Below are positions 60,568-63,797 of a DNA stretch of 64,000 bases, one piece after another. Location: the NCBI RefSeq assembly GCF_900114675.1, contig NZ_FOZM01000001.1, forward strand, positions 1,054,001-1,118,000. Direction: 5' to 3'. The notes under the pieces were generated by a model. The model was not told the origin of the DNA. It was given only the letters and a program-made list of their open reading frames with translations, and did not search any database. Origin of the DNA: Yoonia litorea. Its GTDB lineage: Bacteria > Pseudomonadota > Alphaproteobacteria > Rhodobacterales > Rhodobacteraceae. Position 1 is the stretch's first letter, and the number at the start of each line of letters is the position of its first letter. A program made the position numbers and the translations under genes.

Positions 60568-60699
60568 AAGACAGAATGTCGTTTTCGGGATAGTTTTCTG
60601 AGGCCGCAGCAGAGGCGTTTTTGCCATTGGCCCCGGACTGGCAGCGCGGTATACGCAAGGCCTGATAACGCTAACCACATCCTGATATGGAGCAAGACG

Positions 60700-62070
60700 A
60701 TGACTGACTGGCAAAAATCTGACTGGCGCAAAAAGCCACGGGTTCAGATGCCTGAGTATACCGACGCAGCCGCACTGAACGCTGTCGAGGCCCGTCTTGC
60801 CAGCTATCCACCGCTGGTTTTTGCAGGCGAGGCCCGCAACCTCAAAGCGGAACTTGCCGCAGTCAGCCGCGGGGAAGCCTTCCTATTGCAAGGTGGTGAT
60901 TGCGCCGAAAGCTTCGCTGAGTTTTCAGCCGACAGCATCCGCGACACCTTCAAGGTGATGCTGCAAATGGCGATGGTCCTGACCTACGGTGCCAAAGTGC
61001 CAGTGGTCAAAGTGGGCCGGATGGCGGGCCAGATGGCCAAGCCGCGCTCTGCGCCGACAGAGACAGTGGATGGCGTGGAACTGCCAAGCTATCGCGGTGA
61101 CATCATCAACGGTTTCGACTTCACCGAAGCAAGCCGCGTCCCTGATCCCGAGCGGATGCTGCAGGCCTACCTGCAGGCGGCTGCAACGCTGAACCTGTTG
61201 CGTGCTTTCTCCACAGGTGGTTTCGCCAATGTGCATGAGGTCCACAAATGGACCCTTGGCTTTACCGATCAGAACGAGGTGAAGAAATACTCCGACATGG
61301 CGGCCCGCATCAGCGACACGCTGGATTTCATGGAAGCCGCCGGTCTGACAACCGACACCAATCACGAATTGCAGACGGTTGATTTCTACACCAGCCACGA
61401 AGCGCTTTTGCTGGAATACGAAGAGGCGCTCTGCCGTCTGGATTCGACATCCGGCAAATGGTTGGCAGGTTCCGGTCACATGATCTGGATCGGTGACCGC
61501 ACACGCCAGCCTGACGGTGCGCATGTCGAGTTCTGCAAAGGTGTTCAGAACCCCATCGGGCTCAAGTGTGGTCCATCGATGACCTCAGGCCACCTGAAGT
61601 CGCTGATGGCGTCTCTCAACCCCAACAACGAGGCTGGCCGTCTGACGCTCATCGCGCGCTTCGGGGCAGGGTCCGTGGGCGAGCATCTGCCGCGCCTGAT
61701 CAAGGCTGTCGAGGAAGAAGGTGCAAAAGTTGTCTGGACCTGCGACGCGATGCACGGGAACACGATCAAGTCCTCCTCCGGTTATAAGACACGGCCTTTC
61801 GAAAGCGTGCTGCGTGAGGTGAAGGAATTCTTCGCCATCCACAATGCCGAAGGCACGATCCCTGGCGGCGTCCACTTCGAGATGACCGGCAAGGACGTCA
61901 CCGAATGCACCGGTGGTGTGCGGGCTGTAACGGATGAGGATCTTTCTGATCGCTACCACACGGCCTGTGATCCGCGCCTCAATGCGTCTCAGTCGCTTGA
62001 ACTGGCTTTCCTTGTCGCCGAGGAACTCTCGGCGCGCCGCAGCGCAATGGCGCAGGCCAAGGCGGGCTGA
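60700..62070 (+). CDS. aroG: class II (plant-type) DAHP synthase
   Basis: Makes 3-deoxy-arabino-heptulosonate 7-phosphate from PEP and erythrose 4-phosphate, the first shikimate step. The 456-residue protein has the class II features [25 protein letters not shown], then [32 protein letters not shown], and [16 protein letters not shown]. The frame extends to 60475, but the ATG at 60700 follows GGAGCAAGACG and gives the normal N-terminus [10 protein letters not shown]. Its stop lies directly against the stop of the convergent PAS gene. Confidence 0.96.
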
Positions 62071-62721
62071 TCAGCCGTTATTGACCACTAGTTTGAGGGC
62101 CGGACGCGATGGCGTGTCCGGCCCTTTTTCGATGCGGTCCGGCGGGGTGTTCAGCAGTGTCATCACAGGACGCTTGGGCCCAAGCGGGTCAACCCGCGTT
62201 GCCTGATCCAAAGCGATCCGGAACCGCCGCGGTCTGCGCGAGGCATGATCGCCGGTGACAAATGCGCCGAGCAGACGTGTCGTTTCGCCTGCCGTATCCC
62301 GCATCGGTAAAAGAAGCAGCGCGCCAGACAGACCGGGTCGCAAAACACCGCCATCCGACACCAGCGGCAAGCCGACTATCGCCGGGTCGGCGAATGCGGC
62401 CTCCGTCAGTTCACGCAAGTCGTCATGGGTCTGCTGCTGAAAAAGGGTTGAGAATGGCATCCCGCGCGGGTCCATTTTCAACAGATCATGGATGCGCTGG
62501 CCCGCCACTCGGAACCGGGCGGTTCCCGCGGCAACCCTTTGCAGGATGAAAGCGTGCGGCAAGACGCTCTCGATTGCGGAAGGATTCATGGCGATGCGCT
62601 GCGGGACGGTTTCGGTTTTCCGCAAGCTCTGCCAATAACGCTCCAGCGCCACAAGATGCGGGTGATCCAATGGGATCGCTTCCGGTGCTGGTTTTTGCGT
62701 CGTTTCGTCATTGCTCTGCAT
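62071..62721 (-). CDS. PAS domain protein (PAS_5/DUF1457 family)
   Basis: A 216-residue cytoplasmic protein. Residues about 20-115 fit the PAS_5 family: LVALERYWQSLRKTETVPQRIAMNP, SVLPHAFILQRVAAGTARFRVAGQRIHDLLKMDPRGMPFSTLF. The rest is variable and ends PALKLVVNNG. The ATG at 62721 (MQSNDETT) has GGAGGAGATGACGAC in front and is preferred over 62742. Signal input and output partners are unknown. A CtrA-type box lies upstream in the 185-base divergent gap with yicC. Confidence 0.75.
   Translation of the reverse strand: MQSNDETTQKPAPEAIPLDHPHLVALERYWQSLRKTETVPQRIAMNPSAIESVLPHAFILQRVAAGTARFRVAGQRIHDLLKMDPRGMPFSTLFQQQTHDDLRELTEAAFADPAIVGLPLVSDGGVLRPGLSGALLLLPMRDTAGETTRLLGAFVTGDHASRRPRRFRIALDQATRVDPLGPKRPVMTLLNTPPDRIEKGPDTPSRPALKLVVNNG
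62097..62129 (+). terminator. aroG terminator inside the PAS gene
   Basis: GGGCCGGAC/GTCCGGCCC (9 bp, extended by inner pairs, loop ATGG) is followed by TTTTT at 62125-62129. It ends plus-strand aroG transcription 27 bases past the aroG stop, while the same bases encode the C-terminal part of the PAS protein on the other strand. Confidence 0.75.
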
Positions 62722-62806
62722 GTCGTCATCTCCTCCGGCCAATGCCTTCCGGCAATCAGCACAATTTTCGCGTTAGGAGTTTTTTAACATCTCTTAGAGC
62801 GCCATT

Positions 62807-62827
62807 CATTTAACAAAGCGTTAAATG
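62807..62827. promoter_or_regulatory. perfect CtrA-type box between the PAS gene and yicC
   Basis: TTAA at 62810-62813 and TTAA at 62821-62824 are separated by exactly seven bases, and both lie in the 8-bp inverted repeat CATTTAAC-AAAGC-GTTAAATG (62807-62827). A further GGTTAAT and an upstream TTTTAACAT give several TTAA motifs in about 60 bases in a GC-rich genome. The TTAA-N7-TTAA arrangement is the CtrA consensus known from Caulobacter and used in Rhodobacterales. The site is about 86 bases upstream of the PAS start and 80 bases upstream of the yicC start. Confidence 0.55.
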
Positions 62828-62906
62828 GTTAATGCCACACCGCGCCCTTGCCCCCCCTGATGGTTTTCCAGTAGGTGCAGACGAGGCTGCAAATACAGAG
62901 GTGCCG

Positions 62907-63797
62907 ATGACCCATTCCATGACCGCTTTCGCCAGCAAAACCGGCCATCTGGGATCGGTGTCATGGGTCTGGGAAATGCGCGGGGTCAATGCGCGGGGGC
63001 TGGATCTGCGTTTGCGTTTGCCTGACAGCATTGAGGGGCTGGAACCTGCGTTGCGCAAGGCGCTCACGGCGCAACTGTCGCGGGGGAATGTGACGGTGAA
63101 CCTGCGTCTGACACGCACCGAAGAAGCGCAGCCGCTCAGCCTTGATGCCGCACAGCTTGATACGGTGTTGCAGGCGCTCGATCAGATACAGGAACGGGCG
63201 TTCGCGATGGGCGTGACACTCGGCCAACCCACAGCAGCCGATGTGTTGTCACAGCGCGGTGTCCTCGTGGCTGCCCGCAACGACGACCAGACCGAGGCTT
63301 TGGCTCAGGCCCTCATGGCCGAGATTGCGCCGCTTGTCGCCGAGTTTGTCGCGATGCGGGCGACGGAAGGTGCCGCGCTCGCAGAGATCATCTCGCGCCA
63401 GCTTGATGAGATTGAAAGGTTGACCCACGCCGCAGATGCCGCCGCCCAAGCCCGCGCGCCACAGACCAAAGCCGCACTGACAACAGCGATGCAGCGCGTC
63501 CTCGAAGAAGTCGCTGACTTGGACGAAGCGCGTCTGGCGCAGGAACTGGCCGTGCTGGCCGTGAAGTCGGATGTGACCGAAGAAATCGACCGCCTTAAGG
63601 CCCATGTCGCAGCAGCACGCGATCTTTTGGCACAGGACAAACCGGCGGGGCGCAAGCTTGATTTTCTGGCACAGGAATTCAATCGTGAGGCCAATACACT
63701 GTGTTCAAAAGCGCAAGCAACAGACCTCACGGCAATTGGTCTTGATCTGAAAGCCGTGATCGACCAGATGCGCGAGCAAATCCAGAACGTGGAGTGA
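62907..63797 (+). CDS. yicC: YicC family endoribonuclease-type protein
   Basis: YicC proteins act on RNA, including small-RNA turnover in E. coli. The 296-residue protein has the family N-terminus [39 protein letters not shown], and the C-terminal [19 protein letters not shown] with [20 protein letters not shown]. The ATG at 62907 is preferred to the upstream one at 62832 since family members begin MxxSMT. It is followed by gmk after 5 bases, the common yicC-gmk arrangement. Confidence 0.95.

Follow-up and report, generated by a model that had tools for sequence, protein, structure and literature searches.

The window, which is the whole 64-kb stretch of DNA analysed, contains aroG (class II DAHP synthase; 60691-62070, plus strand; Pfam PF01474), a gene encoding a 216-aa PAS_5 protein (62071-62721, minus strand; Pfam PF07310, E 2.8e-29) and yicC (62907-63797, plus strand; Pfam YicC-like N and C, TIGR00255). 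The ATG of the PAS_5 gene, at 62721, was picked by eye via a Shine-Dalgarno-like stretch. PAS_5 and yicC are divergent and separated by a gap of 185 bp, in which we found an array of TTAA words: box A, TTAACAAAGCGTTAA, at 62810-62824 (TTAA-N7-TTAA, also TTAAC-N5-GTTAA), which the pattern scan returned as the sole TTAA-N7-TTAA of the window; box B, a degenerate TTAG-N7-TTAA located 37 bp away (62773-62787); and, on the minus strand, a TTAACCAT half-site at 62825-62832 (ATGGTTAA on the plus strand), the last two read from the sequence. The TTAA words of box B and of the half-site lie at 62784-62787 and 62829-62832, respectively, and a perfect 8-bp dyad, CATTTAAC-N5-GTTAAATG, can be read around box A (62807-62827). 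A preliminary description of this DNA had reported a TTAA-N7-TTAA inside an 8-bp dyad with TTAA half-sites nearby, and this was confirmed. The window box has an A instead of the canonical C after its second TTAA. A likely yicC promoter (TTGCCC ... TAGGTG; 62848-62877, plus strand) was predicted by eye from the sequence and the genus alignment.

PF07310 was the only Pfam domain found in the PAS_5 protein. The AlphaFold2 model (mean pLDDT 87.5) shows one PAS fold followed by a C-terminal tail of low confidence, and Foldseek returned LOV/PAS domains at modest similarity only (best E 1.7e-4, TM about 0.36 by query length). Past the low-confidence linker, the tail has the consensus RPALRLVV in 34 homologues, with L209 invariant and P207, L211 and V212 nearly so, a possible signal for docking or degradation.

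Conservation of the boxes in Yoonia/Loktanella

The PAS_5 gene was present in 34 of the 35 other genus genomes searched, and the 30 genus loci include aroG and PAS_5 in every case and yicC in 28. Alignment of the gaps gave a single strongly kept block, CAYTTAACAAAGTGTTAAnnGGTTAAY, about 75-110 bp before yicC. Box A is exact at the aligned place in 25 of these 30 loci, eroded in L009, L015, L018 and L019, and absent in L029. Among the genus gaps with an exact box A, the second pair was represented by TTAA at +37 in 19/26 and at +48 in 16/26. The TTAA half-sites and their spacing are kept in relatives; the 8-bp dyad is not, because the genus alignment is variable in the bases past the second half-site. 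The spacer CAAAGTG is also conserved in the genus, beyond the needs of a CtrA box.

For the counts, gaps sharing identical last 80 bases were taken as one (genus and family), L026 and L029 were left out of the genus set (no yicC found), and six named loci were assigned to it by eye on the basis of identity. An intact box is present in L026 and L294 (Yoonia vestfoldensis SKA53), and tblastn gave no match to yicC downstream of it, though a start resembling that of yicC can be read; the gene may be damaged or highly divergent in both.

The preliminary description considered the box unlikely by chance. The statistics of the window do not bear this out: at least one TTAA-N7-TTAA was found in 7 of 100 dinucleotide shuffles of the window (mean 0.07), and the pattern occurs at 15 places genome-wide versus 27 for its reversed form, that is, without enrichment. 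A lone site in 64 kb is only mildly surprising, and the chance argument by itself is weak. Conservation, in contrast, does sustain the claim. TTAA-N7-TTAA is present in 28/32 genus PAS_5-yicC gaps versus 0.9% of shuffles, GGTTAA (TTAACC on the PAS_5 strand) in 31/32, and the control word AATT-N7-AATT in 0/32; moreover, PAS_5 identity is just 36-58% among the genus homologues listed, so that there has been time for the gap to change. That the box arose by chance in AT-rich DNA is consequently very improbable. Other TTAA-N7-TTAA places of the genome (L103, L105, L106; G000:C8) lie before an RTX-repeat gene, before a sugar transferase gene and between two genes that, judged by eye, resemble polysaccharide export genes.

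Occurrence of the boxes across the family

PAS_5 matches were found in 354 of the 394 family genomes, and 27 of the first 28 family loci inspected have yicC divergent from PAS_5. Beyond the genus, the element can mostly be recognised in relaxed form only: KTAA-N7-KTAA (either strand) in 69/124 gaps of other genera (shuffles 2.0%), GGTTAA in 104/124 (shuffles 5.2%) and the control AATT-N7-AATT in 5/124 (shuffles 0.5%), counts which are not independent events because the sequences are related by descent. Stricter patterns are rare: TTAAC-N5-GTTAAC (either strand) occurs in 2/32 genus and 6/124 other gaps, and the 23-base pattern TTAACAAAGTGTTAANNGGTTAA, with at most one mismatch, in only 4/295 family genomes, three of these in the PAS_5-yicC gap. 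Motif conservation upstream of orthologous PAS_5 genes, the check proposed in the preliminary description, was positive both in the genus and, in the relaxed form, in other genera.

The family set left out L082 and L125 (yicC start not alignable) and L096, L117, L119, L132, L141 and L150 (no yicC hit). L274 was scored PAS_5-positive from the family search, although its locus shows no PAS_5 hit. A record with the title Nocardioides marinus, L349 (JAHVJD010000001.1), contains an aroG with 79% identity to that of the window, and PAS_5 and yicC follow it in the arrangement seen in Rhodobacteraceae; the record has probably been mislabelled or is mixed.

Association of the boxes with PAS_5 or yicC

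Upstream of aroG (80 named loci), the relaxed box was found in 1/80 and GGTTAA in 0/80; upstream of yicC, in CtrA-positive genomes without PAS_5, both were found in 0/5. The element therefore goes with PAS_5 and not with yicC-gmk. The PAS_5-less set was drawn from 11 genomes that are CtrA-positive, PAS_5-negative and matched by YicC, five of which were used. The other six were excluded: G104 and G404 for a weak PAS_5 hit (TTAACC occurs in both), G218 for its contig end (a TTAACC half-site is present), G219 as a fragment, and G152 and G229 because aroG is missing from the locus (full box absent by eye).

CtrA could also bind the array and control yicC (and gmk), or both genes; a coupling of yicC-gmk had been the alternative put forward in the preliminary description. 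The two genes have the divergent gap in common, the array precedes the likely -35 of yicC, and TTAA is identical on both strands. However, the boxes are missing in all five PAS_5-less genomes that keep yicC, and TTAACC is found on the PAS_5 strand in 104/124 gaps of other genera versus 42/124 on the yicC strand. In addition, the likely -35 of yicC lies at a variable distance from the box, 11 to 24 in 27 of the 30 genus gaps measured (the remaining three were probably misread by the pattern), whereas the two boxes keep their mutual spacing. Control of yicC is thus improbable, and the preliminary alternative is not supported.

The arrangement of half-sites was compared with that of ctrA promoters. 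On the PAS_5 strand of other genera, KTAA offsets peak at 11, 21 and 32 (68, 22 and 24 of 124), close to the 11, 20 and 31 of ctrA promoters (55, 21 and 23 of 60). The yicC strand, on which TTAA words read identically, has offset 11 in 22/124 and offset 32 in 23/124, and 21 was not among its enriched offsets. Under the ctrA-promoter matrix, the stretch after the box in other genera scored -8.3 for the 74 boxes of the PAS_5 strand, compared with -18.3 for the 24 of the yicC strand and -18.9 for random positions, so that a ctrA-like stretch after the box is seen on the PAS_5 strand only, a further point against yicC as the target; only 8 of the 74 PAS_5-strand stretches score above 3. In the genus, no ctrA-like sequence was detected after the box (-21.6 versus -18.9 for random), and the PAS_5 promoter of the window is accordingly not located in this way.

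Candidate regulator of the array

CtrA is encoded in the genome of the window (424 bits, cut-off 350). Boxes of the type GTAAC-N6-TTAACCATT are present upstream of ctrA (training set n = 30, weakest member L176), where KTAA-N7-KTAA is found in 55/60. With the matrix built from 30 ctrA promoters, the PAS_5 gaps scored a mean of 7.5 in the genus (n = 28) and 8.7 in the family (n = 60), compared to -1.2 and -3.4 for the respective shuffles, 15 to 29 for the ctrA boxes themselves and -1.5 for the CtrA-positive genomes listed without PAS_5 (n = 10). Scores of at least 14 were reached by 10/60 family gaps and 1/28 genus gaps, and the strict label of ctrA-type box was dropped for the genus on the latter count.

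The osp promoters offer the closest link of the PAS_5 boxes to CtrA. In R. sphaeroides, osp is reported to be activated by CtrA, and Osp to inhibit CckA. In the genome of the window, TTAACCATTCGTTAA ends 78 bp before the gene of a 129-aa single-domain receiver protein (L098:1262-1740, G000:C5), in which Asp51 is present and the usual N-terminal acidic residues are absent, in agreement with the published description of Osp; judged from these features, it is probably the osp of this genome. The box upstream of the osp homologue is TTAACACTTCGTTAAG in G365 and G025 and TTAACACTCTGTTAAG in G369, and the usual PAS_5 box, in gene direction, is TTAACACTTTGTTAA followed by A or G; TTAACACTTCGTTAAG and TTAACACTTTGTTAA differ in one spacer base. 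Searching the genus for YTTAACAAAGNGTTAA with at most one mismatch, the 30 loci among the matches listed fell into the PAS_5-yicC gap (23), osp (2) and elsewhere (5); 20 further, hand-picked matches fell into the gap (1), osp (1), beside an osp neighbour gene (1) and elsewhere (17). Given the similar boxes at ctrA and osp, the strongest candidate for the regulator is CtrA, and for the target PAS_5.

The boxes might instead be real and conserved and be read by another dimeric regulator of TTAAC half-sites (another OmpR-type response regulator, or a dedicated one) that controls PAS_5. The conserved spacer and the intermediate matrix scores would fit such a protein, as would G243 (99% complete, 2 contigs), in which no CtrA-family hit exceeds 155 bits, yet PAS_5 and the boxes are kept. 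Against it stand the near-identical boxes at osp and the similar ones at ctrA, together with the outcome for other motifs: those of CenR (TGA-N8-TGA according to PMC9275681), DnaA and CcrM (GANTC) are not enriched in the gaps, the palindromic FNR site was found in 0/156 gaps, and a looser FNR/Dnr-like word in 4/32 genus gaps (shuffles 0.5%) and 1/124 others, which is taken to be overlap with the TTAA array. Another regulator is clearly less likely than CtrA.

Several observations speak against CtrA as the regulator: the boxes kept in G243, the A of the window box in place of the canonical C, the low matrix scores of the genus gaps, the genus sequence after the box and the conserved spacer. So do G358 (fragmented), which has no detected CtrA yet keeps a perfect box, and L009, L018 and L019, in which box A is eroded despite an intact ctrA. 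G359, in which ctrA is interrupted, has a box A with one changed half-site. The two parts of its ctrA, residues 1-182 and 172-224, are separated by about 42 kb (L242, L372; G359:C42:148313-190613); the sequence after the break is integrase-like by eye and on the other strand, so that a mobile element may sit in this gene. In-frame stop codons in ctrA were seen in the genus members L241 (G025:C13) and L373 (G364:C29), together with a frame break in G025; no PAS_5 match was found in G025, whose genome is only 84% complete.

Co-occurrence of PAS_5 and CtrA was rejected as evidence. Among the 394 family genomes, PAS_5 is absent in 23/30 CtrA-negative versus 17/364 CtrA-positive genomes (Fisher p about 1e-20); YicC is missing as well from 16 of the 22 double negatives that could be identified, so that many are reduced, divergent or incomplete genomes, and the comparison was set aside. 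Unlisted genomes were deduced from the gaps in two lists, one of the 394, in neither list, was scored negative in both, and ctrA in the nominally CtrA-negative G065 and G432 is actually cut near contig ends.

Discussion

We consider it fairly probable that the PAS_5-yicC gap contains a CtrA site array controlling a MopJ-like PAS_5 gene. In the mechanism proposed, phosphorylated CtrA would bind the two TTAA-N7-TTAA boxes, 37 bp apart, and the TTAACCAT half-site on the PAS_5 strand, and this binding would most likely activate PAS_5, a small MopJ-like sensor protein; yicC would be served by its own promoter downstream of the array, and is probably not a target. CtrA as the binder, activation as the effect and the PAS_5 transcription start site are what we infer here. 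The suggestion of the preliminary description that PAS_5 belongs to the CtrA regulon is strengthened by the conserved boxes and by the similar boxes at ctrA and osp; the dyad on which it also relied is not the conserved feature. A literature search covering publications apart from supplementary regulon tables found nothing joining CtrA with yicC, or CtrA with Yoonia. CtrA sites of this kind are already known, and PAS_5 as their target is a new prediction.

More tentatively, and as a reading that we regard as rather unlikely, CtrA might activate across Rhodobacteraceae a MopJ-like PAS_5 sensor feeding back on the CckA-ChpT-CtrA relay. Together with Osp, it would then form a pair of CtrA-controlled feedback arms in a group from which DivK is reported to be missing (Rhodobacterales; PMC9430884), and CtrA would be tuned by a signal that the PAS domain senses. 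If the predictions are right, a widespread and apparently unstudied gene would become a predicted CtrA target, and its product a candidate input to the phosphorelay governing motility, gene transfer agents and differentiation; the set of boxes at ctrA, osp and PAS_5 could then be used to seek further targets in the family.

Regarding known CtrA-binding boxes, the D. shibae motif is given as TTAAC-N5-GTTAAC (PMC7232146), TTAA-N7-TTAAC has also been used for this species (PMC4046655), and full, half and ungapped TTAACCAT sites are described in PMC6180460, which gives the full site also without its final C. The window box resembles them in its TTAA halves 11 bp apart and in 10 of the 11 fixed letters of TTAAC-N5-GTTAAC, with TTAACCAT present on the PAS_5 strand, ctrA in the genome and similar boxes at ctrA and osp; it differs in the missing C after the second TTAA, the arrangement of two boxes 37 bp apart plus a half-site, and the conserved spacer. 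The osp promoters of Rhodobacterales are similar in that the Yoonia osp boxes are one spacer base off the usual PAS_5 box and share its orientation, and different in that they precede another gene and show one box in the stretches read, versus two at a fixed 37 bp for PAS_5.

As for the protein, Caulobacter MopJ, which acts in motility and cell cycle, is described as promoting CtrA re-accumulation and interacting with DivJ (PMC4432633). The likeness lies in the single PAS_5 domain and in the MopJ model, matched by 33 of the 34 homologues tested; the window protein itself, however, scored 28.9 bits against the NCBIfam MopJ equivalog, far under the cut-off of 200, and the mopJ promoter is described as GcrA- and (p)ppGpp-dependent and linked to GANTC methylation (PMC4432633), whereas GANTC is not enriched in the PAS_5 gaps. 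A MopJ-like feedback by PAS_5 is accordingly put forward by analogy, as a hypothesis on function and not as membership of the MopJ family.
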